Part shown: piece after piece, positions 38,226 to 59,441 of the stretch
Layout of the letters: each line of letters opens with the position of its first letter
How positions within the stretch are numbered: position 1 is the stretch's first letter
The notes under the pieces: model-generated
The model's database searches: none
Told to the model about the DNA's origin: nothing
The model's input: only the letters and a program-made list of their open reading frames with translations
Source of the DNA: Terrimicrobium sacchariphilum
Lineage (GTDB): Bacteria > Verrucomicrobiota > Verrucomicrobiia > Chthoniobacterales > Terrimicrobiaceae
Assembly (NCBI RefSeq): GCF_001613545.1
Contig: NZ_BDCO01000003.1
Span: forward strand, 248,001 to 312,000
Reading direction: 5' to 3'
DNA: 64,000 nucleotides
Translations under genes and position numbers: made by a program

Positions 38226-38271
38226 GTGGGGACAGGATAGTGAGAGATGGTGCTTTTCAGCAGGAGAATCA

Positions 38272-38294
38272 AGATGTCACAACGACTGACAACG
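38272..38294. promoter_or_regulatory. 23-bp palindromic operator, copy 3 (epimerase/PcRGLX-like divergent promoter)
   Basis: Left arm AGATGTCAC, 5-bp spacer, right arm CTGACAACG. TGTCA and TGACAA fall at the same positions as in the other copies, while outer bases differ. It lies 14 bp before the ATG at 38309, or 44 bp before an alternative ATG at 38339. Confidence 0.45.
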
Positions 38295-38308
38295 AGGATT
38301 GTTTCGCA

Positions 38309-41300
38309 ATGAACGCCATCATCAAGCAAGCAGGAACGATGAGACGGATTCCCCTGGTGGTGATTGGCGCGTTGGCGGGAGTGCTCGGTGCGCAGGCAGA
38401 GTTTCTCCAGCAGGTCCGCCCGGCACCGCTCACACCGACCGAGGAAGCGTCGGTCTCGGATCGATCTGGCAAGCTCAGCCAGCTTCCGCTCAAGTTCACC
38501 CCCTATGACACCCAGCGGGCGCAGATTCCGTTCCGAAGGGAGATACTGACAGACCGGCAGGTGTATTTCGCCGATGACCCGGTCGGCCAGGTGCTCATCT
38601 ATTGCCTGACGCCGCTTTCCGGGAATCCTGCGGCTGGAAAAGTGCGCTTCGAACTGAAGACCGACGGCAAGACCGTGGAACGGCAGGAGGTGACGGTCGA
38701 TCACAAGTTTTCCGCGCTCCTTCCGATCGAGAAGCTACCTGTCGGCGCTTACGAGATGACCGGGGAGTTTGAGGTGGGAGGCAATGTCTGGACGCTCCGG
38801 CCTGCGCAGTTTTCCAAGATCGCCGAACGACGGAACACCCGGCCAATTCCGGAAGGCGGCATCCCGCTGGTGCTGCAAGCTGCGCCGGAAAAAGGACGGC
38901 AGATCAGCCCGATCATTACAGGCATCCCCATTCCCCGTCACCAGGCCCAGAGTCCGGAGGAGTTCACGCTGCTGGAGAACGGCAAGCCTGTCGATGCGCA
39001 ATTCACCCAGCGGGCGACCTGGTACCCTGGACAGCAGGTAAAGTGGCTCGGACTCAGTTTTCTAGCCCGCTATCAGGATGGCCGACCAGCAGAGTATCGG
39101 GTGATCCGCAAGAATACGCCGCTGCCTCCATCCACGCTGAAGATTGCCGAGACGGACAAGGAAATCGTGGTAAGCACCGGTGAGATCACCTTTGAAATCG
39201 GCAAGGCGCCATTCACGGGCATTCGATCAGTGAAGCTCGCGGGGCAGGACAAGCCGCTCGTCCAGGGCGAGGGAGGCCCCTTTCTGATCGATGAGCGGGA
39301 GATGGTTTTTCAATCAGCCCTCGATGAGGCAGCGGAGGTGCGTATCGAGGAGCAGGGATCGGTTCGCGTGACCGTGTTGGCGACCGGATGGCTGACCAAT
39401 CCTCGAAACGAACGCCTGTGCCGGTACGAAATCCGTTTCACCGCCTGGGCAGGGCAGCCATGGATCGATGTTCACCAGCGAACCGTTCTAACCTTCAATA
39501 CGGACGAGAAAAAGCTGGCTCGGCTTGGCTTCCTCGTGCCGGTGGTTGATGCCCAAAAATGGGCGGCGGGACTGGATGCATCGACGAAGTCGGGCGAAAT
39601 CCCCGCGTTGCCCTCGCTTGACCCGAAAAAGAAACCGCCTGCAAACAGCGCTCCGGTCACGACCAAATGGATCATTCAGCCGCGACCGGATCAGGTTGCT
39701 GTGGAGGGTATATCCGGGCCTGCGATTCCGGCGAATCGGGCGGATGGATGGGTGACCGTTTCCGGCTCCCTCGGTACGACTCAGGTCAGCGTGCGAAATC
39801 TCTGGCAGTTGTTCCCCAAGGAGATCGCCTGGAGTCCCAATGCTCTCGTAATTTACCAATGGCCCGAGCACGGCCGAGTGAGTTTCACCGAAGAGGAGGA
39901 ACTCAGTGCGGATCATCTGCATCAGATTCGCTATGCCCATCAGGGCAAATATCTCGATCTGAAGTTCCCGCAGAAATACTTCGACGCGATGCGCAAGGTG
40001 TATCCGCCGATCATTGAAAATCAGGACATCAATGCGCTGTCCGGCAATGGAATGGGCATGGCGATCACGACGGATTTCCGGTTGCAGTTTGCCCAGACGA
40101 TTCCCGAGGTCGACGCAGCAGCGGCAAATCAGATGTTTGCCGCCAATCTCCATGGCATCTCCGACCCAGTCTGGAACGGTCTGAGTGAAGTCGAGGGCAG
40201 GTTTGCCGGAAAGCAAAAGGGAGTCACTGATTCCTGGGACGACTTCTGGGCGCAAGCCTTTCATGGATTTACCTCATCGGTCGACTATCTGGGTGACTAC
40301 GGGATGTGGATATGGCCCGACGTGCACAACAACTGGAGTCCCACCACACTGCGACCGCAGGCGCATCGCTGGTGGCTCAACAGCCACTACCAGAATCCCT
40401 GGGATTACAATTTCATGTATTTCCGATCGGGCGATTTTCGGAACAAGGACTGGGCCAACAATGCCTCGCAGCACTTCATGGACGTAGGAACAGTCAATTA
40501 CTCTGACGAAAGCCGCACGCTGCTCGGCAAATTGCCGGGTGCAAATTACCACGTGAAGGGATTCACGCCCTGGGGTTCTGCCCGAGAGGGCGAGGTGGTG
40601 GGCGACGACTATGTGGAGGTGGCCGCACACTTCATCAATCCCGACGCCAATCTCTTCCGCTACCTGCTCTTTGGAGACAGGAGCGGACTGAATCTCGCGA
40701 GAAATTGGTTTAAATCCCTCGGGCTGGTGACGCTGCCGACCGAGCGGAGCCGCGAGGCATGCACGACGCTGGGCGAGGTCCTCAGCTTTTATGAAAACAC
40801 CTGGGAACCCCAGGCCATCGCCTACATCCACGAACTGGCCGACGCGATGCTGAGCCGTCCCTTCTCCGAGGTGCCCGCCTTCCCTGCGCATCCGTTTTTT
40901 CACGACCGCTGGGTCATGCGGTACTGGAATCTCACGGGCGACGTACGTATTCAGCAGCCGGTGTTGGATGTCCTCAAGGTCGGAAACACGCTGAACTACA
41001 CGCACTTTGAGCTGGCCGCTCTGGCGTGGCGCTGGACTGGAGATGCCGAATATCTGAAGATGTTCCTGCCCAAGGCTGCGCCGACGTTTGGGAAGATATA
41101 CCGCAATCCTGGTGATCCACTGGATGGGTTCGGCGAACGTGTTTTCAAGCCCACGCACAGCCAGACGCAGATCGTTCCCTACTACTTGCAGGCGTTGATC
41201 GATGCGGGGCTGAAATATCCTGAGACCGAGCTAAAGCCGCCGTCGATCGCCAAGGCCACCGTACTGCCCAAACTGGACAAAATGACCAATCTGGGGCCCT

Positions 41301-41635
41301 CCACATCGCTGCTCAAGGTCGATGGCTCAGGTCCGCTGAGCTTGAAGGTGGAGGCGACCTACGATGCCAGGACCTGGGAGAAGAGAGGGACCGTCGGCAA
41401 TGTGGAGGTGTTTGACGCCCGCAACCAACTGGCGGGCAGCGCCTCGGTGCTGGCTGGCGCGAGGAGCAACAGCGCGGTCATTGACCTGGACCCTGCGAGA
41501 TTCCCGGCCCCGTGGACGCTGGTCGTGAGGGGCGCGGTACGGATCGGATGGAACGGCGGCGCTCAAACTGTGACGCTGGAACCCGCCGCGGGAGGCGACA
41601 CCGAACAGGAAGCCGATGACGCTGCGTCGGACTGA
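38309..41635 (+). CDS. Secreted PcRGLX/YetA-like protein (PL26-like), copy 1
   Basis: 1108 aa from 38309 (an in-frame ATG at 38339 gives MRRIPLVVIGALAGVLGAQA and may be the true start). A signal peptide precedes an N-terminal beta domain (to about 230), a middle RIFT-like barrel and an alpha-toroid section. The blocks GDYGMWIWPDVHNNWSP, HRWWLNSHYQNPWDYNFMY, FRSGDFRNKDWANNASQHF and MDVGTVNY are close to those of fungal exo-rhamnogalacturonan lyase PcRGLX (PL26) and Bacillus YetA. A role in cutting rhamnogalacturonan-like or other acidic glycans in the periplasm is inferred. A paralogue lies at 55656-59441; both have the 23-bp operator. Confidence 0.75.
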   Translation: MNAIIKQAGTMRRIPLVVIGALAGVLGAQAEFLQQVRPAPLTPTEEASVSDRSGKLSQLPLKFTPYDTQRAQIPFRREILTDRQVYFADDPVGQVLIYCLTPLSGNPAAGKVRFELKTDGKTVERQEVTVDHKFSALLPIEKLPVGAYEMTGEFEVGGNVWTLRPAQFSKIAERRNTRPIPEGGIPLVLQAAPEKGRQISPIITGIPIPRHQAQSPEEFTLLENGKPVDAQFTQRATWYPGQQVKWLGLSFLARYQDGRPAEYRVIRKNTPLPPSTLKIAETDKEIVVSTGEITFEIGKAPFTGIRSVKLAGQDKPLVQGEGGPFLIDEREMVFQSALDEAAEVRIEEQGSVRVTVLATGWLTNPRNERLCRYEIRFTAWAGQPWIDVHQRTVLTFNTDEKKLARLGFLVPVVDAQKWAAGLDASTKSGEIPALPSLDPKKKPPANSAPVTTKWIIQPRPDQVAVEGISGPAIPANRADGWVTVSGSLGTTQVSVRNLWQLFPKEIAWSPNALVIYQWPEHGRVSFTEEEELSADHLHQIRYAHQGKYLDLKFPQKYFDAMRKVYPPIIENQDINALSGNGMGMAITTDFRLQFAQTIPEVDAAAANQMFAANLHGISDPVWNGLSEVEGRFAGKQKGVTDSWDDFWAQAFHGFTSSVDYLGDYGMWIWPDVHNNWSPTTLRPQAHRWWLNSHYQNPWDYNFMYFRSGDFRNKDWANNASQHFMDVGTVNYSDESRTLLGKLPGANYHVKGFTPWGSAREGEVVGDDYVEVAAHFINPDANLFRYLLFGDRSGLNLARNWFKSLGLVTLPTERSREACTTLGEVLSFYENTWEPQAIAYIHELADAMLSRPFSEVPAFPAHPFFHDRWVMRYWNLTGDVRIQQPVLDVLKVGNTLNYTHFELAALAWRWTGDAEYLKMFLPKAAPTFGKIYRNPGDPLDGFGERVFKPTHSQTQIVPYYLQALIDAGLKYPETELKPPSIAKATVLPKLDKMTNLGPSTSLLKVDGSGPLSLKVEATYDARTWEKRGTVGNVEVFDARNQLAGSASVLAGARSNSAVIDLDPARFPAPWTLVVRGAVRIGWNGGAQTVTLEPAAGGDTEQEADDAASD

Positions 41636-46925: not shown

Positions 46926-48089
46926 TTGTTGAGTTTCTACCGCCAATTTCTTTTTGAGGGAGTCATCCCGTTCTGGCTGGAACACGGCATCGACCGGGTT
47001 CGTGGCGGTCTGCTGACCTGCATGGACGAGGCGGGGAAGCTCATTAGCTCGGAGAAATTTGCGTGGTCACAGGGGCGTGGAATTTGGACGTTTGCGGCGA
47101 TTCACCGTCGGCTTTCGCCGGACCCTCAGCTTTTGGAGATCGCGGTGCAGACCGCGGAGTTTTGCCTGGCTCATGCGATCCAGGCCGACGGGCGGGTATG
47201 TTTCCGCATGTCGCGCAGTGGGGAGGTGCTCGAGGGGCATACCAGCGTCTATGCCGATTTGTTTCTGGCATATGGGTTGAACGAGCTGTATCTCGCCACA
47301 GGCACGCAGCATTACCGGGATACGGCTCTGCGTTTATTCCGGCAAAGCGCCGCAGAGATCACGCAGCCTTATTTCAAGACGATCGCGCCCTATGCCCTTC
47401 CGTCTGGTACGGCATGGGTGCATGGTCCGCCGATGATCGCGCTGGAGACCGCCAATGAACTGTTGGAAGGGGGAGCCGAGAGAGACCTGATTGATTTTGT
47501 CGACTGGGCGTTGGAGCGCATCATGGTACACCATCGGCGTCCGGAATGGAAAACCCTGCTGGAGCACCTGGGACCGGCGGATGAGTTTGTGGACACGCCG
47601 GAGGGACGGGCAGTCGTTCCAGGCCATACGATCGAGTCGATGTGGTTTGTCATTCACGCGGCCACTCGTCGGAATCGTCCGGACCTTGTTCAGCAGGCCA
47701 TCGAGGCGATTCGCTGGATGCTTGAGGCTGGGTGGGATGCGGAGTTTGGGGGAATCTTTCTTGGGCTGGACGCGCGCGGCCACCAGCCGCCGTGGTATGC
47801 CAATGCAGACAAGAAACTCTGGTGGGTGCATTGCGAGGCGATCTATGCGCTGGCGCTGTGCGGAAGTCTCCGCCCGGAGCCATGGGTCGACGAGTGGTCT
47901 GGACGGGTGCTGGACTGGTCGCTGGCTCATCATGGCGACGGCAGAGGCGAGTGGACCCAGCGGCTTGACCGGGAGGGAAAACCGATCAAGGAACTTATTG
48001 CCCTGCCGGTGAAGGACCCGTTTCATTTACCCCGCGCACTTACTCTCAGCATTCAGCTTCTTTCCCATACGCATCCTTATGTCCGTTAG
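46926..48089 (+). CDS. AGE family epimerase/isomerase
   Basis: 387 aa, starting at TTG 46926 or 46929 with GGCGGAG a few bases before; no ATG or GTG fits. The (alpha/alpha)6 barrel motifs are RGIWTFAAIHRR, GHTSVYADLFLAYGL, PGHTIESMWFVIHA and KKLWWVHCEAIYAL, which carry the catalytic His pair. Members convert N-acylglucosamine to N-acylmannosamine, mannose to fructose, or cellobiose-type sugars. In a window with nanA, nagA and nagB, interconversion of ManNAc and GlcNAc is attractive but not proven. It overlaps the downstream permease fusion by 11 bp. Confidence 0.88.
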   Translation: MLSFYRQFLFEGVIPFWLEHGIDRVRGGLLTCMDEAGKLISSEKFAWSQGRGIWTFAAIHRRLSPDPQLLEIAVQTAEFCLAHAIQADGRVCFRMSRSGEVLEGHTSVYADLFLAYGLNELYLATGTQHYRDTALRLFRQSAAEITQPYFKTIAPYALPSGTAWVHGPPMIALETANELLEGGAERDLIDFVDWALERIMVHHRRPEWKTLLEHLGPADEFVDTPEGRAVVPGHTIESMWFVIHAATRRNRPDLVQQAIEAIRWMLEAGWDAEFGGIFLGLDARGHQPPWYANADKKLWWVHCEAIYALALCGSLRPEPWVDEWSGRVLDWSLAHHGDGRGEWTQRLDREGKPIKELIALPVKDPFHLPRALTLSIQLLSHTHPYVR

Positions 48090-50784
48090 CCGAATTTTTG
48101 GTTTCATCTTGCTCCTGGCAGGATGGGTGGCCGTTGCACAGGCAGGGGGAGAGGTCGAGGTGATCGATGGGAGGCCCGTCATTAATGTGGTCGTGCCGAA
48201 CCTGCCCATCCCGAGTGATAACTCCGCCATTGCTCGTGCCCAGGTTGCGGTGGTGCGGCAGTTTACGGCCGATTTTCCCCGCATTTTTCGCGAGAAGTAT
48301 CTCGCCCGCTATCTGGCTGATCCCCAGAAATACGGGTCTTATGATTGGGAGAATGTTGCGATAAGGCTGGTACCCTTTTCCGGACTCAAGGTGGAGGGAG
48401 TGGAAAGCGATCTCATGGCCATCGCGGGCGGCTCACCGCCGGATGTGCTTTATGTGAATTTTCGCAAATCCGACACCTACATCCGAAACGGATTCCTATA
48501 TCCCCTCGACAAGCTGGAGGACCCGTACTTCACCTCATTCAGCGATGCCCAGAAGCGCGCTCGGGTGCATCCCAAGATCTGGCCCGTCATTGATCGGAAG
48601 GGGCCGGACGGTCAGAAACATATCTGGGCTCTGCCCACCGGAGGCTTCATGGGCCGGGTGCTCGCTTACCGCAAGGACCTCTTTGACGAAGCGGGGCTGG
48701 CCTACCCGACGGTGGACTGGACGTGGGATGACATGCTGCATGCAGCCAGGGTGTTGACTGATCCCTCCCGCAATCGCAGCGGTTTGCTGATGCGCGGCGA
48801 CCCGGGGTGGAATTTTTCCACCTTTCTGTGGTCTGCTGGTGGAGAAGTGATGGAGTACGACGAGCCCGCCGACGAATGGCGGTGTGTCTTTGGAAGCCCG
48901 GAAGGGGCGAAGGCTCTGGATTACTTTCTGCAGCTGACCCAGGAACTCTGGCAGACCAAGGAGGGGCAATGGATGCGTGGATATGCCTTCAATGACCAGC
49001 GGCTGGGAGATTACAAGTGGCAGCGCGGCGAGGTCGGGATGAACCTCGTCTACATGGATGAGCAGTTCATCTCCGGGCTGAATCCGGAGCTCGTGGGCAT
49101 CGTGCCAGTGCCGAAGGGACCGACTGGATTGCGCGCCGGAGAACTGAACAGCCGCATGCTGGGCATCTACTCGCAGATCAAATCCCCCGCGGTGCGAGAT
49201 GCCGCCTGGGAGTATATCGCGTATCAGGACAGCGATGCGGCCGGGGCGGTGCGGACGCGAGTCCTGGTGGAAGCCGGGCTGGGACGCTTTGTCAGCCCGC
49301 GCGACTTGAACAAGTTCGGGTATGCCGAGGTTGCCCGCCTTGCGCCCAAGGGCTGGGCGGAGGTGTTTCGCATCGCGTCGGAGACCGGCCGCCCGGAGCC
49401 CTACGGAAAGAACAGCAACCTGGCTTACCGCATGTTGGGAATCCCGGTACGCGAAGCAGCAGAGGCGGCAATGCGCAATGGACTTCCGAAGGCTCCGAAC
49501 GAACGCATCAAATATCTGGCGGAATTGCTGCAGCGCGGCGAGCAGCGCGCCAATGCGGCGATGATTGGCAAGGTGACGCCAGAGGAGCGACGGACGCGCT
49601 CGATCGTCGCGGCGATCTTCCTGATCTTCGTGGCTGCGGCGTTTGGATTCGTTTTCTTCCGGGTGTTCCAGACATTTGGTTCCCAGGCGGCCACGGTGCC
49701 CGGTCGGATTGGCTTTCGGCGGGGCCTTGCGATCAGCCTCATGCTGGCGCCTGCGCTGCTGTCGATTCTGGTCTGGAAATACTATCCGCTGCTGGCGGGT
49801 TCCGTGATGGGGTTTCAGGATTATCGTATTCTGGAGGGATCTACTTGGGTCGGTTTGAAGCACTTTGGAGACATGCTGTGGGATGGGCTGTGGTGGCAGT
49901 CTCTGTGGAACTCGATGCGATTTTCCTTCATCTCTCTGGTCTTCGGTTTTTTACCGCCGATCATCCTGGCAATCCTTCTCCAGGAGGTGCCGAGGGGGAA
50001 GGTGTTCTATCGCCTGATGTTTTACTTGCCTGCGGTCCTGGCCGGCCTCGTGACGCTCCTGCTTTGGAAACAGTTCTACGATCCGACGCCGCGTGCTCCG
50101 CTCAATGCCATCATCCTGAAGCTGCCCGCTATCGTTTTTGTTGGCGTGGGGCTCGCTGTATTAACGCTTACCCTGGTGCTGGCGAACCGCTTCCGCTTTC
50201 ACGGCCAGATGGTTCCTGCCGTCATCTCGACACTGGTGGGTATTGTCTTTCTGGTGAGCGTGGTGAGCATTCCCTGGGTGGTGCTGGAGGAGCATGGGCT
50301 GGCCGGACTCTTCCGCACGCTGCCCGAGCCAATCCAGTGGCTGAAAGATCCCCGCTATGCCATGCTGTCGATCGTGCTCCCGGGCATATGGGCTGGCGCG
50401 GGACCTGGGTGCCTGATCTATCTGGCTGCCTTGAAGGGCATCCCGGACGACTTCTATGATGCCGCCGAGATCGATGGAGCGGGCTTCTTTGACAAGCTCA
50501 TCACCATCGTCATTCCCATGATGCGTCCGCTGATCATGATCAGTTTTGTCGGAGCGTTCATCGGATCGTGGCTGGGATCGGCGGATCATGTGCTGGCCAT
50601 GACCGGAGGGGAGGCCAATACTGAGGTCGCGCCGCTGAATATTTTCTACAAGGCTTTTGTGTACCTGGAGTTTGGTCCTGCGACAGCGATGGCCTGGATG
50701 CTGGGATTCCTGCTGATCGGTTTCACGGTCTATCAACTGCGCATGCTCGCGAAAGTCGAGTTTCGCACGACGGGAGGAAGATAA
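48079..50784 (+). CDS. Fused sugar-binding protein and MalF-type ABC permease
   Basis: 901 aa. Residues 1-22 are a signal sequence (FGFILLLAGWVAVAQA). Residues about 35-470 are an extracellular solute-binding domain of the CUT1 type (GGSPPDVLYVNFRKSDTYI, GFLYPLDKLEDPYF, ALPTGGFMGRVLAYRKDLF, WTWDDMLHAARVL). A membrane helix at about 507-528 (IVAAIFLIFVAAAFGFVFF) leads to a MalF-like permease to the end. The ABC coupling loop is ALKGIPDDFYDAAEIDGAG near 785-803, and the GSWLGSADHVLAMTGG helix follows. Binding protein and permease are normally separate in this class, so the fusion would give a fixed receptor-to-channel ratio. It is co-transcribed with the AGE gene and the MalG-type permease 4 bp downstream. 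Confidence 0.9.
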   Translation: MSVSRIFGFILLLAGWVAVAQAGGEVEVIDGRPVINVVVPNLPIPSDNSAIARAQVAVVRQFTADFPRIFREKYLARYLADPQKYGSYDWENVAIRLVPFSGLKVEGVESDLMAIAGGSPPDVLYVNFRKSDTYIRNGFLYPLDKLEDPYFTSFSDAQKRARVHPKIWPVIDRKGPDGQKHIWALPTGGFMGRVLAYRKDLFDEAGLAYPTVDWTWDDMLHAARVLTDPSRNRSGLLMRGDPGWNFSTFLWSAGGEVMEYDEPADEWRCVFGSPEGAKALDYFLQLTQELWQTKEGQWMRGYAFNDQRLGDYKWQRGEVGMNLVYMDEQFISGLNPELVGIVPVPKGPTGLRAGELNSRMLGIYSQIKSPAVRDAAWEYIAYQDSDAAGAVRTRVLVEAGLGRFVSPRDLNKFGYAEVARLAPKGWAEVFRIASETGRPEPYGKNSNLAYRMLGIPVREAAEAAMRNGLPKAPNERIKYLAELLQRGEQRANAAMIGKVTPEERRTRSIVAAIFLIFVAAAFGFVFFRVFQTFGSQAATVPGRIGFRRGLAISLMLAPALLSILVWKYYPLLAGSVMGFQDYRILEGSTWVGLKHFGDMLWDGLWWQSLWNSMRFSFISLVFGFLPPIILAILLQEVPRGKVFYRLMFYLPAVLAGLVTLLLWKQFYDPTPRAPLNAIILKLPAIVFVGVGLAVLTLTLVLANRFRFHGQMVPAVISTLVGIVFLVSVVSIPWVVLEEHGLAGLFRTLPEPIQWLKDPRYAMLSIVLPGIWAGAGPGCLIYLAALKGIPDDFYDAAEIDGAGFFDKLITIVIPMMRPLIMISFVGAFIGSWLGSADHVLAMTGGEANTEVAPLNIFYKAFVYLEFGPATAMAWMLGFLLIGFTVYQLRMLAKVEFRTTGGR

Positions 50785-50788
50785 AGCC

Positions 50789-52696
50789 ATGCCAATGATC
50801 TCTCTCATCGGGCGTCGACAATGGAAGTCGCGCCTCCTCATCTGGTCCATCTACATCGTGCTGTCCGCGGGCGTAGTGACGATGGTTTACCCGTTCTTGC
50901 TGATGCTGGGCGGTAGCACCAAGACCTCGCTCGATGCCGCCGAGGTCACGGTGATGCCTCGGTATCTGGTCAATGAAACCGCCTTGTACCGGAAGTACCT
51001 GGAGGGTTTTTTCAATGAGCGGAGTGAGGCGATGCAAAACGCCTACGGGCTGTGGGATGCGACCTTCCTGAAGGTGAGTCTTCCGGGAGAATCCTCGCCT
51101 CTGATCGCGGACTGGCAGTCTTTTGTCGCGGACCGGGAGAAGAGCGAGAACGTGGCCTGGTTCGTCCTCGCCTATTTGCAGTGTCCGGTCAGCAAAAATG
51201 CGGTCCCCTTCAACCTCTCGAAACTGCGCACCGAGCTCCTGCGGGAAAACGGAAGCATCGAGGCTGTCAATCTCAAGTACCAGACTTCGTTTCCCAACGT
51301 ATCGGCGTTTTATGTCGTGCCGGCGAACTTTCTCAATCGGTTCGTCACCAGCGCGGCAACTCCGTTCGCCCAGCGGGTGGAGGAGTTTTCCCTGGCGCAG
51401 CCTGTCATGTGGAGGGCGTATGTTGATCTGTCGAATTTCTTTCGTAGCTATCTCCGAGGGGAGTACGGGGCGTCGATTGCCGCCCTAAATGGTGCTCTGG
51501 GGACATCCTTCGGATCCTGGAGCGATGTCCCGCTCGAGGCCACGCGAGCCGAGATGCCTCCTGCATTGCACAAAGACTACGAAGCCTTTGTACGAAACGT
51601 TCTGAACCCTGTGTTTTTGCAGGTCGATTCCGGCAGGGCTCTGGAATTCCGGTCGTACCTGAAGGCGAAGTATCGCGGCGATATAGCCGCTTTCAATGAA
51701 CGCCGGGGGACGGCGGTGACCAGTTTTGAGGAAGTGGTTTTTCCCACGACGAGGCCCAGGCAGAGCATTGAGAAGACGGACTGGGATGGGTTTCTCGAGG
51801 GCTGGACGGATGATGCTACCGGTTCTAGATATCAGCTCCCGATCGAAGGAATACGGCTTACCGGGCCGGATTTTGCCTTTCGGGAATATCTTGGCCAGCG
51901 ATATGGCAGCTTGGCCCGGATGAATGAAATGCTGGGCACCGCTCATTCCACCTGGGGCGTGGTAGCGATGCCGCAACAGGCGGCGCAGTTTGTCGATTTC
52001 CAGAAGATGCAGGGCTGGCTCAAATGGTATTTCACCACCCGCAACTACATCGATGTGTGGAACTACCTCGTTGTTAATGGGCGGGGATTCTTTAACACGC
52101 TGATCTTTTGCGCGCTCTCCATCCTGGCCGCGCTCACTGTAGACCCGATCGCTGCTTACGCGCTCAGCCGTTTCAAGCCTCGCTCCACCTACAAGGTGCT
52201 TCTCTTCCTCATGATGACGATGGCGTTTCCCGCCATGGTGACGCAGATCCCCATGTTCCTGCTCCTGCGGGAGCTAGGCATGCTCAATACCTTCTGGGCG
52301 CTGATCCTGCCGGGGCTGGCCAATGGTTATCACATCTTTCTTCTCAAGGGGTTTTTCGACTCCCTCCCGCGCGAGCTCTACGAAAGTGCCGCCATCGACG
52401 GGGCGAGCGAGCCGACGATCTTTTTCAACATCACGATGGCCTTGTCCAAGCCGATCCTGGCCGTGATCGCCCTGGGGGCCTTCACCCATGCCTATGCGGC
52501 GTTTATGTTTGCCCTCCTCATCTGTCAGGACCCGAAGATGTGGACGCTCATGGTGTGGCTCTTCCAGTTGCAACAGACGAGCGGCCAGGGCATCGTCTAC
52601 GCAGCCCTCATTGTCGCGGCTATTCCCACCCTGCTGGTGTTCGTCTTCTGTCAGAACATCATCATGCGGGGCATTGTCGTCCCAGTGGAAAAGTAG
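50789..52696 (+). CDS. MalG-type ABC permease with a large repeat-bearing periplasmic insertion
   Basis: 635 aa, more than twice the usual 280. Helix 1 is at about 17-38 (IVLSAGVVTMVYPFLLML). A soluble segment of about 390 residues (40-430) follows, then a normal MalG core (FFNTLIFCALSILAALTVDP, AYALSRFKPRS) with the coupling loop SLPRELYESAAIDGASEP (about 524-541). The insertion has four spaced repeats of a motif around YG-x-I-x-A-x-N-x3-GT-x-F-x-S: about 151-178 (GSIEAVNLKYQTSFPN), 221-250 (YGASIAALNGALGTSFGSW), 290-323 (YRGDIAAFNERRGTAVTSF) and 367-395 (YGSLARMNEMLGTAHSTW). Topology places it on the periplasmic side, facing the fused binding protein of its partner. Confidence 0.88.
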   Translation: MPMISLIGRRQWKSRLLIWSIYIVLSAGVVTMVYPFLLMLGGSTKTSLDAAEVTVMPRYLVNETALYRKYLEGFFNERSEAMQNAYGLWDATFLKVSLPGESSPLIADWQSFVADREKSENVAWFVLAYLQCPVSKNAVPFNLSKLRTELLRENGSIEAVNLKYQTSFPNVSAFYVVPANFLNRFVTSAATPFAQRVEEFSLAQPVMWRAYVDLSNFFRSYLRGEYGASIAALNGALGTSFGSWSDVPLEATRAEMPPALHKDYEAFVRNVLNPVFLQVDSGRALEFRSYLKAKYRGDIAAFNERRGTAVTSFEEVVFPTTRPRQSIEKTDWDGFLEGWTDDATGSRYQLPIEGIRLTGPDFAFREYLGQRYGSLARMNEMLGTAHSTWGVVAMPQQAAQFVDFQKMQGWLKWYFTTRNYIDVWNYLVVNGRGFFNTLIFCALSILAALTVDPIAAYALSRFKPRSTYKVLLFLMMTMAFPAMVTQIPMFLLLRELGMLNTFWALILPGLANGYHIFLLKGFFDSLPRELYESAAIDGASEPTIFFNITMALSKPILAVIALGAFTHAYAAFMFALLICQDPKMWTLMVWLFQLQQTSGQGIVYAALIVAAIPTLLVFVFCQNIIMRGIVVPVEK

Positions 52697-52877: not shown

Positions 52878-55370
52878 ATGAAGAAATCCGCTCCACGTCA
52901 TTTGGTAGTCTGTTGTGCAGTTTCACTATTGTTAGGGAACATCTCCATCCAGGCGGCCAGCAGTACCTGGACCGGGGCAGTAAACGGAAACTGGACCGAC
53001 TCGGGAAACTGGTCAGGCGGCTCTGTCCCGGGAGCGGGCGACACGGCAACTTTCAGTGGTTCCTCGAATACCTCGGTGACGGTGGATTCCAGCAGGAGCA
53101 TTCAGAATATTTCCTTCCTTGGATCGGATGCCGGAGCGTTTTCGCTGCAGTCGGGTTCCTTTGTGCTGGGATCGGGTGGTTCGATCCTGCTCGGTGCCAA
53201 TGTGGCAAACTCCCAGACGATTGGTTCGGCGCTGGCTTTGGATACTGCTGCGACATTTTCCAACGAAAGCTTGCGTGGTGGATCGGTTCTCTCCCTGGGG
53301 GCGGTGAGTGGAACTTCTGCGGTTTCGCTTGGCGGCGTGGGTAATGGAGAAATCAACGGAGCGATTGCGGGGACGGTCACCGGGATCACCAAGAGTGGCA
53401 GCGGCACATGGACGTTGCGCGGTGGAGGTTCATCTGCCGGGCAGGTCACCGTTGCCAATGGCAACCTTGTGGTGGATTATTCGAATGCCGCAAGCGGCGT
53501 GAATACGAACTACGCCTTTGCCAGCACCGCCTCGCTCATGGGCTCTGGCGGGACCATGCAGTTTGTCGCAAAGACGGGCGCGGGCAATGAGACGGTGCAG
53601 ACGTTTGCTTCGGCGGGAGCCACCGCCAACACGGGGTTGAGTACATGGAAATCCCAGCTGAACGGCGCGACTGACTTGCGTGTAACTGTAGGCGCCTTCT
53701 CGCGTGGTGCGGGAACCGCCGTCCTTTTTGATTCCTCGAGCGGCGGCAAGTTCTACACCACTACGGCGAACCAGACGGCGGGCTACCTGAACACTGCGAC
53801 TTTTTTCAAATCCGCCTCCGGGGTGGACTTTGCCAAGGCCGGGTCGGGTACGTTAAAAGAGATCTCGGCCCTGGGAGCCACGACGGAGCTGACTAACGGA
53901 GCTTCCAGTGGAAACTTTGTCGTTACTGCAGACAGCTCCATTACGACCACCACCCGTGTGAATAGCCTGCGTGTTGCGGGTGACGTCACCATTACGCTGA
54001 CCAACACTCGCATCCAGTCGACGGCGGGATTCCTCTTTGATAGCGGAACCCAGCTGGTTACGGGATCGGGAACTGCTGCTTACCTGGCAGATGCCAATCC
54101 TTCGAATGCGATCATCGCAAAGTTTGGCACGGGTGCATTGACGATCGACTCCGCTGTGAAGGTGGGAACGGGCGCTGGAAACGTGAGCTTTTTTGGAGAT
54201 GGATTGATCGATGTGAAAAGCGCCTCGAACGTTACGGGGACGAATCAATATTTCGGGACGGTCCGGCTTTCCAATACGGGAGCCATCAACTTTTCCAACG
54301 CTACGGGAACGGGCAATGGAAAGGGAGCCGTCTATCTGGGAAGCGGTGGTATCCTGGAAATCGGCGCTGCCACCAGCCTGACCCGCGATGTGAGCTCGGC
54401 CGGTACGCTTGGCACGATCCAGTGGACGGGCGACGGCGGATTTAGTGCTTTTGGAGGTGATCGCACGGTCAATCTCTCCAGCGGCTCCTCTCTGGGCTGG
54501 GGCAGCACGGCGGGGTTTGTGGGAAATGGAAGCGCGCTGATCCTGGGTTCCAACTTCTCCGATTCCAAGCTGACCTTCCAGAATGCCATCGATCTTGGTT
54601 CCGGAAATCGTGAGGTCAGGGTTCATAATGGAGTGTCGTCGACGAATGTGGATGGCGAACTTTCCGGTGTACTCAGCGGCTCAGGGGGAAGCCTGACGAA
54701 AACCGGCCTGGGAGCTCTTTCGGTAACCGGGGCGAATATCTACTCGGGCGGCACCTACGTCAGCGTCGGTTCCTTGCTGGTCAATAATACCACCGGCTCG
54801 GGAACGGGAACGGGTGCGGTCTACGTCCAGTCCGGGGCCAGGCTGGGTGGTGGCGGAACGATGAGTGGAGCGGTGGTGGTTCAGGGTACGCTCGCTCCCG
54901 GCAACAGCATCGGCACCATCTCGACAGGCAGCCTGACCATCGCGAGCACAGGCGCCCTGAGCGTCGAGCTCGGTCGCAATGCCGGCACGCCGGTGGCGGA
55001 TCGCGTGGCGGTCACCGGGGCTGTGACGCTGGATACCGGCTCAAACTTGCAGCTGACAATCTACGCCGGGCTGACCAATCCACAGGTCGGAGATATCTTC
55101 TTCCTCGTGGACAATGATGGGGCGGATGCGGTTGTTGGGGTGTTTTCCAAGTTGAATGGAGTGACAACGCTCCTGAACGAAGGCAGCCAGTTCTTTTGGA
55201 ATTCGCAAGCTTGGGAGATCACCTACAAGGCAGACTTCAGTGGCGGCACCTTCACGGGTGGAAACGACGTCGCCTTGCTGGCGGTGGTCCCGGAGCCTGA
55301 GACGTGGCTGCTCGTCACGGTGGCCGGTCTCCTGATGCTCGTCAATGGCCGACGCCGCAGAGCTCCCTGA
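52878..55370 (+). CDS. Autotransporter-associated beta-strand repeat protein with PEP-CTERM
   Basis: 830 aa, secreted. After a signal peptide (VVCCAVSLLLGNISIQA) the sequence is a long low-complexity beta-solenoid of G, S, T, N and A: openings such as STWTGAVNGNWTDSGNWSGG, TKSGSGTWTLRGG, then LTKTGLGALSVTGANIYSGG and LVNNTTGSGTGTGAVYV, the typical autotransporter-associated beta-strand repeat. There is no translocator barrel. The last 27 residues are a PEP-CTERM signal (VPEPETW, hydrophobic helix, RRRRAP). Verrucomicrobia have many such proteins, presumed to be surface adhesins or matrix components. It is a single gene with its own operator and a strong terminator. Confidence 0.88.
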   Translation: MKKSAPRHLVVCCAVSLLLGNISIQAASSTWTGAVNGNWTDSGNWSGGSVPGAGDTATFSGSSNTSVTVDSSRSIQNISFLGSDAGAFSLQSGSFVLGSGGSILLGANVANSQTIGSALALDTAATFSNESLRGGSVLSLGAVSGTSAVSLGGVGNGEINGAIAGTVTGITKSGSGTWTLRGGGSSAGQVTVANGNLVVDYSNAASGVNTNYAFASTASLMGSGGTMQFVAKTGAGNETVQTFASAGATANTGLSTWKSQLNGATDLRVTVGAFSRGAGTAVLFDSSSGGKFYTTTANQTAGYLNTATFFKSASGVDFAKAGSGTLKEISALGATTELTNGASSGNFVVTADSSITTTTRVNSLRVAGDVTITLTNTRIQSTAGFLFDSGTQLVTGSGTAAYLADANPSNAIIAKFGTGALTIDSAVKVGTGAGNVSFFGDGLIDVKSASNVTGTNQYFGTVRLSNTGAINFSNATGTGNGKGAVYLGSGGILEIGAATSLTRDVSSAGTLGTIQWTGDGGFSAFGGDRTVNLSSGSSLGWGSTAGFVGNGSALILGSNFSDSKLTFQNAIDLGSGNREVRVHNGVSSTNVDGELSGVLSGSGGSLTKTGLGALSVTGANIYSGGTYVSVGSLLVNNTTGSGTGTGAVYVQSGARLGGGGTMSGAVVVQGTLAPGNSIGTISTGSLTIASTGALSVELGRNAGTPVADRVAVTGAVTLDTGSNLQLTIYAGLTNPQVGDIFFLVDNDGADAVVGVFSKLNGVTTLLNEGSQFFWNSQAWEITYKADFSGGTFTGGNDVALLAVVPEPETWLLVTVAGLLMLVNGRRRRAP

Positions 55371-55534: not shown

Positions 55535-55655
55535 AGTTGCTGCTGGTTGACAGGCCGGGATTAGCATCGAATGAAATACGTGCAGGCACTGTGTTGTCGA
55601 ATCTCTCGGGGTGTAATTCGCGCTTTGGGTGGGCCGCGTGTCCTGCGCGACTGAT

Positions 55656-58600
55656 ATGGCCAGACACTCTTCTCCTCAGCCTGTGGACTCCGGTTATATC
55701 CGGACGGTATTGTTGTTCATCCTTTTCGGCATCGCCGCGGCTGTCGTGGCCTGGCGGCTTGGCTATCTGCCCTCTGGAGACGGCGGGAAAAAAACAGAGA
55801 GTCGCGGAGAGGTGGCGGCTTCTTCAAGACCAACTGCATCTGCAACACCGGCCGCGAGGGCGGTCATGCCTGGGACGCCGCTCGAAACCCTGCGTCGGAT
55901 AGACAGTCCGCTCGCCACCCTGCCCGCCAAGGTGGCTGCCAACGCCGTGTGGTGCGATCGGGTGGTCTATGCGCCGAATGACCCCGCTGGTCAGCTCCTG
56001 GTAGTTTCCACGGTCTTGAGCAAGGCTTCTGCGGGCACGCGGCTGGAGGTGAGCCTGCTTGACGGAAAGGGGCAGGCTCTGGCCACGGAGTCCTATCTGA
56101 CCGAGGAGGGAAAACCCGCCTATCTGGTCGCAGGCAAGCTGAACGCGGGCGCTTTGCCGGAGGGAAGCTACACCCTCGCCGCGCGTATCGTCCTCTCCTC
56201 GGGCGGCGGTGAGACTGCGCTGGTCTCGGGGACATTTTCCGTGGGTAAGGCGCTGCGGCCCGAGGCGGGTTTTCCTGCCGCCGGGGTCCCCTTGATGGTG
56301 CCTCCGATCGAGGCGACGGGCGAGACGATCGCGCCGATCTCCTTCGGCGTGCCGCTGCCGTTTGGCGCTCTCTCTCCGGGAGAAAAGCTGGAGGTCTGGG
56401 AGGGCGATCAGCCGATCCTGACCCAGTCTCAGCCGATGGCATACTGGGGGCCGGGGCCGGATGACTCCGTGCGCTGGATGGGAATTTCCTTCGTTGCCAG
56501 ATACCGCGATGGCAAGGCCCAGAAGTACGTGCTGAAAAAGGCGGCGGCGGAAGTTGCCTCCCCGCTGAAGGTGGCGGAGTCCGCAGAGAGCGTGGTTATC
56601 GAAACAGGCGCGGTCCGGTTTCAGATTTCCAAGCGGGCCTTCCGGGGGCCGGAACAGATTGAAGTAAAGCAAGGTGAAACGTGGGCAAGGTTGTCCACGA
56701 CAGTGAATTCCGCGGGCGCCTATCTCGTTGACGAAAAGGGAACGCGTTATGAGGCGTCCGCGGATCTCGCTCCCGAAGTGCGGATCGATGAAAACGGCCC
56801 GGTGCGCGCGGCAGTATCGATCCGCGGATGGTATGTCAACCCGGCCAACCCACAGGACAGGCTCTGCCAGTTTCAGGTGCGACTTTATGCCTATGCGGGG
56901 CTGTCGCGGATCGATGGATTTCAGCGCACCATCATCACCTATGACACGCATGCGAGGAAGCTCGCTGATGTGGGCTTCTCGGTGCCGGTCGCAGCTGCCG
57001 GGCAGAATGCGGTTCAGTGGTACACCGGCATCGATGGCCAGATCCAGTCGGGTTCAGTGGCATCGACTGGCTCGGTGTTCTTTGCCCAGGCTGCGCCGGA
57101 TGCGGTGTGGCTGAATCACATCGATGGAGACCCTGCGGGGAAGCGCTCCGACGGCTGGCTGGCGGTGCGCGACAGCACAGTGACAGCGGCGGGTTTTCTG
57201 CGCGATGTGTGGGAGAAGTTTCCCAAGGAGATTTCCTATTCCTCGGGGGAGATGACCTTTCATTCCTGGCCGAAACACGGGCGGCGCATCGTGGCGCCGG
57301 AGGAGGAGATCAAGCGGGAGAACATCCACCGCAATCTCTTCGCACACCAGGGGCCGCTGCTCGATCTGCAACTGCCCGAGGTCTACTTCAACCAGCTGCG
57401 GACGTGGCATGATGCGCTGCGGTGGGATCGCGAGAATACCTCATTTATCGGCTATCGCAGCGATGGCAGCGGGGTAAGCATGAGCATCCGCTTCGGCGTG
57501 GAGTATTTCCCGGGCAAGACGCCGGATGCCGCCGTTGCCTCGCAGTCGATGGTCAACCAGACGGCGCCATCGGCGATCACTGATCCTGCGTGGAATGTAG
57601 GGAGCGGCGTGATTCCTTTCCTGACGGCGGCTGGCGATCCGCGCTGGGAAAGATCCGACGCATTACTTGAGGCCTATGCCACCGGCATGAGCAACCTGGC
57701 TGCGGTCGGGCGGATCTATGGCATGTGGATTTACGGGAATACGAACAACAACTGGGATACCGGGCTGAAGGCACCGTGGCTCCATCGTATCTGGCAAAAC
57801 TCGCATTACGGGCACGCCAGCTTCCCGTGGAAGTTCTATTTCCGCAGTGGAGACCCGCGATTTCTCAAGATGGCCCGGGCGCAAACCGGCAACCTCATGG
57901 ATGTCGGCATCGTCCACTATGTCCCTCCGGAAGAGGCTGGCACCTATGCGGGGAAGACCCCCGGAGGGCTCTATCACGCCAAGGGCTGGCTGCCTTGGGG
58001 AGTGCGGCTGCGCGGCGAATTTCCCACGGATTCGGATGTCGGCATCCTCCAGCACTGGACCAACCCGAAGGTTTTCCTCGAGCGTTACCTGACCGAGGTG
58101 GACCTCGAGGCCCGGGATGTTTTTGACCTCTGGTACAACCGGCTGGTCAGCCAATACCAATATCGCTCCCATTATGGAGTAGGCCGGGAACTGACTCAGT
58201 CCATCAGCGAACTCGTGGATATCTATCAAACCATCTGGGACCCGCGCCTGGTGGGGTATCTTCGGCCGATGGGGGATTCCGCGCTCGGCACGCCGTTTTG
58301 GAATTATCCTTCCCAACTGGGATTCGCCTTCTTCAATCGCACATGGCCGATCCGCTATTTTGTCTTTGCGCGTGATCCGAAGGTGATCGAAAGACTGGAG
58401 GAGGCGCTGCCCACGGAAAACTACGGCCCTTATGGCATGGCATCGGCAGCGTTGCTGCTCAGTCAGAAAAAGGAGATGGAACGCGCGCCGCGACTGCTGA
58501 GTGTGCTGGAGAACGCCGATCAAAAAGTCTTCCGCAGTCCTGGTGATCCGCTGGATGGTTATGGCGCCTACTCCAGCGCGGTGGATTCGCGAATGCTCGA

Positions 58601-59441
58601 TGAGATTCCGGGAGTGCAGGCGGCCTTGGCGGAACTGAGTCCGGCGGAGTTGAACAAGGCGCGGGCGCAGGGAGTGAATCTGGACCCGGTCTTTCCGGCG
58701 CGGTCGGGAAAGAACCAGGTGCGGGACGGATCAGAGTCTGCCCTGATCCTAGCGCTGAATCCGGACGGCCGTCCGTTCAAACTTCGCTTCGAGAGCCGGA
58801 TGGGCGTCGACATGCTCCCGTCTATCGCCCGGATCGTCGATCCGGCGGGCAAGGAGGTACGGCAAATCCCGCTCCATGATCGCAACGCAGACGGCAGCCC
58901 TCGGCAACTGCGTTACCTGAGCAATGAGGCTCCCGTGTTCGAGATTCCGGGCGGACTGCCCGGCGTGTATCGCATCGAGTTCTACGGGTATTATCCGATC
59001 TATCGGGCGCCGCTGACGGATCTGCCCAATGAGGTGGCGGTACTCGGGCAGGGTTCGCAGGCAGTGAACGGCTTCCTCTTCGCGCCAAAAGCCGGGCAGC
59101 TTACGCTGAACTTTGCCGCTGGCAAACCGCAGGGTGCGTCGCGACCGCTGAGTTTCGCGGTGCAGAATCTCGACGATGGCAAGACCTTCGAGACGATCCT
59201 GCTGTTCGGCTCATCGCGTACTTCGGATTCCGTCACACTCCAGGGTGGCTTGCAAGGTGTGCGCGCAGAAGTTTCCGCGCCCGGGCTGAGTTGGCTTCCC
59301 GCAGACCAGACCGTGTTTTTTGCTCATCGCTGGGATGACTTTGCGCCCGTACTGGGGCGGATCGGCGAGCAATCAACGAAACTCGATAATACATCACTTC
59401 CGGCTGCTCCTGGAGGGGAATCCGCCGGGGCGGAAGAATAA
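55656..59441 (+). CDS. PcRGLX/YetA-like protein (PL26-like), copy 2, membrane-anchored
   Basis: 1261 aa from the ATG at 55656. An N-terminal uncleaved-looking helix (TVLLFILFGIAAAVVAW) suggests a membrane anchor, followed by an S/T/A-rich linker to about 75. The rest aligns by eye with copy 1: VWCDRVVYAPNDPAGQLLVV, PMAYWGPGPDDSVRWMGISF, GMWIYGNTNNNWDTGLKAPW, LHRIWQNSHYGHASFPWKFY, FRSGDPRFLKMARAQTGNL and MDVGIVHY. The extra C-terminal 150 residues form beta modules. The probable role is depolymerising an acidic glycan at the cell envelope. It is followed 7 bp later by the sialidase-like gene. Confidence 0.75.
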   Translation: MARHSSPQPVDSGYIRTVLLFILFGIAAAVVAWRLGYLPSGDGGKKTESRGEVAASSRPTASATPAARAVMPGTPLETLRRIDSPLATLPAKVAANAVWCDRVVYAPNDPAGQLLVVSTVLSKASAGTRLEVSLLDGKGQALATESYLTEEGKPAYLVAGKLNAGALPEGSYTLAARIVLSSGGGETALVSGTFSVGKALRPEAGFPAAGVPLMVPPIEATGETIAPISFGVPLPFGALSPGEKLEVWEGDQPILTQSQPMAYWGPGPDDSVRWMGISFVARYRDGKAQKYVLKKAAAEVASPLKVAESAESVVIETGAVRFQISKRAFRGPEQIEVKQGETWARLSTTVNSAGAYLVDEKGTRYEASADLAPEVRIDENGPVRAAVSIRGWYVNPANPQDRLCQFQVRLYAYAGLSRIDGFQRTIITYDTHARKLADVGFSVPVAAAGQNAVQWYTGIDGQIQSGSVASTGSVFFAQAAPDAVWLNHIDGDPAGKRSDGWLAVRDSTVTAAGFLRDVWEKFPKEISYSSGEMTFHSWPKHGRRIVAPEEEIKRENIHRNLFAHQGPLLDLQLPEVYFNQLRTWHDALRWDRENTSFIGYRSDGSGVSMSIRFGVEYFPGKTPDAAVASQSMVNQTAPSAITDPAWNVGSGVIPFLTAAGDPRWERSDALLEAYATGMSNLAAVGRIYGMWIYGNTNNNWDTGLKAPWLHRIWQNSHYGHASFPWKFYFRSGDPRFLKMARAQTGNLMDVGIVHYVPPEEAGTYAGKTPGGLYHAKGWLPWGVRLRGEFPTDSDVGILQHWTNPKVFLERYLTEVDLEARDVFDLWYNRLVSQYQYRSHYGVGRELTQSISELVDIYQTIWDPRLVGYLRPMGDSALGTPFWNYPSQLGFAFFNRTWPIRYFVFARDPKVIERLEEALPTENYGPYGMASAALLLSQKKEMERAPRLLSVLENADQKVFRSPGDPLDGYGAYSSAVDSRMLDEIPGVQAALAELSPAELNKARAQGVNLDPVFPARSGKNQVRDGSESALILALNPDGRPFKLRFESRMGVDMLPSIARIVDPAGKEVRQIPLHDRNADGSPRQLRYLSNEAPVFEIPGGLPGVYRIEFYGYYPIYRAPLTDLPNEVAVLGQGSQAVNGFLFAPKAGQLTLNFAAGKPQGASRPLSFAVQNLDDGKTFETILLFGSSRTSDSVTLQGGLQGVRAEVSAPGLSWLPADQTVFFAHRWDDFAPVLGRIGEQSTKLDNTSLPAAPGGESAGAEE

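Follow-up and report, generated by a model that had tools for sequence, protein, structure and literature searches.

The closest described relatives of the system analysed here are type I sugar importers and a family of glycosidases. In the maltose importer of E. coli, MalFGK2, the periplasmic P2 domain of MalF (residues 91-271) contacts the binding protein MalE (PMC3150292), and this provides a precedent for the importance of a domain placed beside the binding protein. Importers in which MalE is fused to MalF are competent for transport (Licht et al. 2019, via PMC7756565), and we found no report of a repeat insertion in the MalG of such an importer in the literature searched. The alginate ABC importer subunit AlgM2 (4tqv) also belongs to a polysaccharide importer and matches the core fold of the permease described below (Z 19.5), but its chain of ~284-305 residues is too short to hold a comparable insertion and its binding protein is separate. 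Among enzymes, GH42 beta-galactosidases (1kwg, 4oif and BiBga42A) carry one copy of a helical excursion of ~55-70 residues after barrel strand 4; in BiBga42A, the excursion brings Trp-200, 40 residues on from the acid Glu-160, and Phe-221 to the substrate site of the neighbouring subunit (PMC10688820).

The window, that is, the whole 64,000-nucleotide stretch of Terrimicrobium sacchariphilum DNA that was analysed, encodes an importer that shares with MalFGK2 its type I subunits, the fold of the MalG core and an extra periplasmic domain that would lie by the binding protein. It differs in that the extra domain lies between TM1 and TM2 of MalG rather than in MalF and is built of tandem helical repeats, and in that the binding protein is fused to a MalF that lacks a P2-sized loop. 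In comparison with the GH42 enzymes, the insertion holds five tandem copies of the excursion within a membrane transporter and has neither the barrel, the catalytic residues nor the FWxQ loop. A literature search for a comparable described MalG insertion, with thin coverage of subscription journals, returned nothing relevant.

A MalG-type permease with a long TM1-TM2 insertion

The permease gene (50789..52696, forward strand, as are all features given below) encodes 635 amino acids and was delimited by its open reading frame, Pfam, an AF2 model and fold matching. The transport core (residues 432-630, 52082..52678) contains the BPD_transp_1 domain (PF00528, residues 459-625, E 1.2e-12), and residues 12-635 of the full-length model (mean pLDDT 79.8) align with E. 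coli MalG (2r6g_G) over 262 residues with a Z of 19.6 and an rmsd of 3.1 (VIA-align). The protein scores 71.7 bits against the maltose MalG equivalog in NCBIfam (NF008231), below its cut-off of 261, and is best classified as a MalG-type subunit that is not the maltose MalG equivalog. TM helix 1 (residues 12-42, 50822..50914), with positive residues N-terminal of it, precedes the insertion (residues 46-430, 50924..52078), and a modelled helix at 408-461 leads into TM2. The spacing between TM1 and TM2 is ~385 residues, a net gain of ~345-360 over ordinary MalG and close to the 390 residues that the sequence-only reading had placed between helix 1 and the core of a MalG-type permease. In 66 more distant MalG-type proteins from the same scan this loop usually had 12-27 residues (59-177 in a few), compared with ~200-500 in members of the family carrying the insertion (here termed armed MalG); a clear gap in bit scores separates this family (at least 387) from ordinary MalG (at most 209). 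Modelled alone, the insertion reached a pLDDT of 86.3 and a pTM of 0.85 (AF2), values that indicate an ordered rather than a disordered domain.

The insertion is an array of five related units

Five units were delimited within the insertion: a degenerate unit 1 (residues 63-127, 50975..51169; repeat HMM and model secondary structure), unit 2 (141-211, 51209..51421; model secondary structure, the motif and detection in orthologues), unit 3 (214-279, 51428..51625; self-alignment, repeat HMM and secondary structure), unit 4 (281-357, 51629..51859; Pfam GH42 with the isolated unit at E 0.0018, self-alignment, HMM and secondary structure) and unit 5 (360-406, 51866..52006; Pfam GH42 with the isolated unit at E 0.0032, repeat HMM and secondary structure). 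Each is modelled as helix-helix-3/10-helix-short strand, with unit 5 lacking the strand. Self-alignment of the insertion scored 107, compared with a mean of 32 (sd 4.9) and a maximum of 58 for 300 shuffles, so the repeats proposed from the sequence passed the statistical test; together with the AF2 models, the shuffles rule out chance or disordered repeats. The four copies that had been proposed are present, with the motif Asn at residues 161, 234, 303 and 379 (spacings of 73, 69 and 76) in units 2-5, but the total is five, a degenerate copy at residues 67-114, inside unit 1, having been overlooked. The wording of the motif was too strict, since Tyr-Gly occurs in only two of the four copies and Gly-Thr in three. 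A loosened form finds all four, against a mean of 0.05 and a maximum of 2 in 5000 shuffles, although it was worded with the copies already in view, which makes self-alignment the cleaner test of repetition.

An iterated HMM of the unit, seeded from the window only, detected 85 copies in 23 proteins. Checking the repeat number across orthologues in this way showed that it varies from one to seven units per protein. Units at matching positions in 35 proteins are 32-41% identical, compared with 19% among different units of one protein, so that the array can be taken as old and fixed.

The unit resembles the helical excursion of GH42-like glycosidases

The Pfam family Glyco_hydro_42 (PF02449) matches three stretches of the insertion with 40.6 bits (cut-off 21), repeatedly through the same profile positions, ~151-214 of 376; units 1, 2 and 3 submitted to Pfam each alone gave no match. 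When a profile of 13 permease units was searched against all PDB sequences, 34 matches were obtained to E 10 (best 2.8e-9), the top 27 of which are glycosidases or enzymes of the glycosidase fold, and the first unrelated protein appeared at E 0.043. The matched enzymes include beta-galactosidases, GH167 enzymes, beta-amylase, agarases, exo-glucosaminidases and a beta-1,2-glucosyltransferase that shares their fold; in 1kwg the matched segment is 156-213. Only the unit profile succeeded in this respect, as phmmer with the whole insert found nothing useful in the PDB.

Structural comparison pointed to the same region. A Foldseek search with the insert model was led by one ~60-residue segment in GH14, GH42, GH50 and GH167 enzymes, with weak E-values (best 0.68), and residues 309-372 of 6ptm align with a single unit over 61 residues (rmsd 1.7 A, 26% identity, Z 7.5), while the VIA-align Z scores of the insert, at most 8.2, fall within the range of common arrangements. 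Among the PDB matches listed for the insert model there were single-unit glycosidase segments and no whole array, a result that does not imply a new fold. The relationship of the unit to glycosidases is carried by the sequence evidence rather than by the structure scores. In the same genome, the other carriers of the unit are GH42-like enzymes, each holding a single copy. In these enzymes the strand-4 Asn-Glu acid/base motif, which the permease units lack, lies upstream of the unit, and the enzyme in L150 has its acid Glu-188 and, 40 residues on, Trp-228.

Although no complete GH42 barrel is present, each unit is, from these comparisons, homologous to the helical excursion that follows barrel strand 4 of GH42-like glycosidases; the arm is therefore a detached and amplified glycosidase sub-domain without its barrel. 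The FWxQ loop that bears the sugar-contacting Trp of GH42 is absent from the permease units, and for this reason we regard the unit as a piece of a glycosidase that now serves as a scaffold, with the direction of transfer putative. The residues shared by all permease units are those of the hairpin scaffold and appear structural, not sugar-contacting. The likeness to GH42-like enzymes near their substrate cleft, which had been proposed from shared wording, thus holds in part: sequence and structure match, and the excursion does border a substrate site, but that site belongs to the neighbouring subunit and the Trp-bearing loop is missing.

Armed MalG is inherited with a binding protein-MalF fusion

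Directly upstream of the permease, a 901-residue protein (48079..50784) combines a substrate-binding protein (SBP_bac_1, residues 113-388) with a MalF domain (BPD_transp_1, 709-843). By hydropathy, a tether helix (residues 509-527, 49603..49659) links the binding protein with the MalF core (545-900, 49711..50778), and every loop of this core is shorter than the 180-residue P2 domain of E. coli MalF. All three parts lie in one chain, which places the protein among binding proteins fused to MalF. The MalF part also contains an extra hydrophobic helix pair (residues ~677-729 of the 48079-50784 product), seen too in L031, L032 and L034.

Sampling of 388 genomes of the phylum identified armed MalG in 132, the fusion in 131 and the two together in 125 (odds ratio ~740; p 2e-84 by Fisher's test, without correction for phylogeny). 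The link that the sequence-only reading had drawn between the insertion and the fused binding protein is thus a strong one, 125 of the 132 genomes with armed MalG also having the fusion. The fusion lies directly upstream of armed MalG in 26 of the 29 best loci and beside it in nearly all regions checked; the exceptions are contig ends and pairs whose genes are not adjacent, the latter in L040, L043, L133, L134, L136, L164 and L166. Across 37 neighbourhoods no third widely conserved gene family accompanied the pair. The recurring neighbours, named from their sequences, were sulfatases (6 loci; Pfam confirmed the name for L035 and L044) and Gfo/Idh-like proteins (5 loci). Partial correlations of distance matrices were 0.37 for insert and binding protein, 0.36 for insert and MalF core, and 0.45 for binding protein and MalG core; covariation of the insert with the binding protein is present but not specific, and the binding protein is not singled out.

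Named genomes with armed MalG include those of Verrucomicrobia, Lentisphaerae, Kiritimatiellae and Oligosphaera ethanolica, and the family also occurs in MAGs labelled Cloacimonadota, Sumerlaeota and Hydrogenedentota and in a single MAG, perhaps misbinned, labelled Actinomycetota. An Omnitrophota MalG (L084:6360-7661), which lies outside the armed family by score and represents an independent lineage, holds a CBM30-like insertion of ~177 residues in the same loop (Pfam CBM30, E 1e-6) and stands beside its own fusion of binding protein and MalF (L084:4123-6369).

Other variants of these subunits were observed. A Victivallis MalG (L079:1631-2809), which is not accompanied by a fused binding protein, has a ~123-residue loop insertion that lacks the units. 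In L036:5998-7992 and L044:4189-7107, the MalG core has a second, hydrophobic insertion (~56 and 114 residues, respectively) after profile position ~448. In the related genomes of L009, L016 and L020, MalF and MalG form one chain, in ORFs of 675, 682 and 734 residues, the last being cut at the start of its locus.

Proposed function of the periplasmic arm

The gene product is the MalG member of a type I sugar importer whose binding protein is tethered to MalF, and its expanded TM1-TM2 loop forms a periplasmic arm, predicted to be ordered, with five helical units in tandem. We propose that the arm most likely stands over the translocation pore, where it would dock, cap or position the tethered binding protein, a job partly done by the P2 domain of MalF in E. 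coli, and it may in addition present glycan chains to that protein. We give a probability of roughly 55% to docking or capping of the binding protein by the arm. That the arm touches the binding protein, or any sugar, is our inference, and co-inheritance in an operon does not require physical contact. Docking or capping is the likelier role and glycan presentation its main rival, and the two can hold together.

The strongest competitor, to which we give appreciably less weight, is that the arm is mainly a glycan-binding structure: close to the membrane, it would catch long oligosaccharides or bring them into line and pass them on to the tethered binding protein. The glycosidase derivation of the units is consistent with such a role, as are the two aromatic residues that the GH42 excursion donates to a substrate site (PMC10688820) and the range of unit number. 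The insert is also the fastest-changing part of the system, as expected of a part that adapts to substrate (mean identity of 24%, compared with 35% for the binding protein and 62% for the MalG core), and the importer is surrounded in the window by PcRGLX-like, heparinase II/III-like, GH32-like and sulfatase-modifying-factor-like genes. By analogy, the CBM30-like domain that fills the same loop in L084 keeps glycan contact by the arm plausible. These observations are offset by the permease units themselves, which lack the loop with the sugar-contacting Trp and have in common the residues of a hairpin scaffold. A wider proposal, which we advance tentatively, is that the tethered binding protein and a modular, glycosidase-derived MalG arm, replaceable elsewhere by a CBM, might jointly hold long glycans and feed them into the pore, and define a distinct, widespread class of importers.

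Elongated repeat arrays often serve as spacers, and array length differs between lineages here, as might be seen if the arm anchored the importer to peptidoglycan, an outer-membrane protein or a surface glycan without touching the binding protein. We consider such an anchor improbable, given that the conserved partner of armed MalG is the fusion itself and that the 37 loci offered no other widely conserved neighbour. A reading of the insertion as a glycosidase domain, whether decayed or active, as its Pfam label would have it, has a negligible probability, since so small a portion of the profile is matched and unit positions are conserved in ~30 orthologues, and enzymatic activity is rejected on the missing barrel and strand-4 Asn-Glu acid motif.

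The arm has implications beyond this locus: an enzyme piece of sub-domain size appears to have been put to new use, in tandem copies, within a transporter, and armed MalG is common, occurring in about a third of the genomes sampled (132/388). Because armed MalG is tightly inherited with the fusion, the organisation of importers with permanently tethered binding proteins, including docking and the hand-over of substrate, becomes testable.

Gene neighbourhood and substrate

The genes that accompany the importer in the window, which besides those named above include an AGE epimerase-like gene, point, by inference only, to an acidic polysaccharide as substrate. In the subset of window ORFs examined, none was identified as an ATPase gene. 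The importer region is flanked by two genes for PcRGLX-like proteins (38240-41635 and 55629-59441), and heparinase II/III-like, GH32-like and BNR proteins are encoded nearby. Directly downstream of the permease, the product of 52878-55370 carries a PEP-CTERM sorting signal as well as autotransporter-type repeats.
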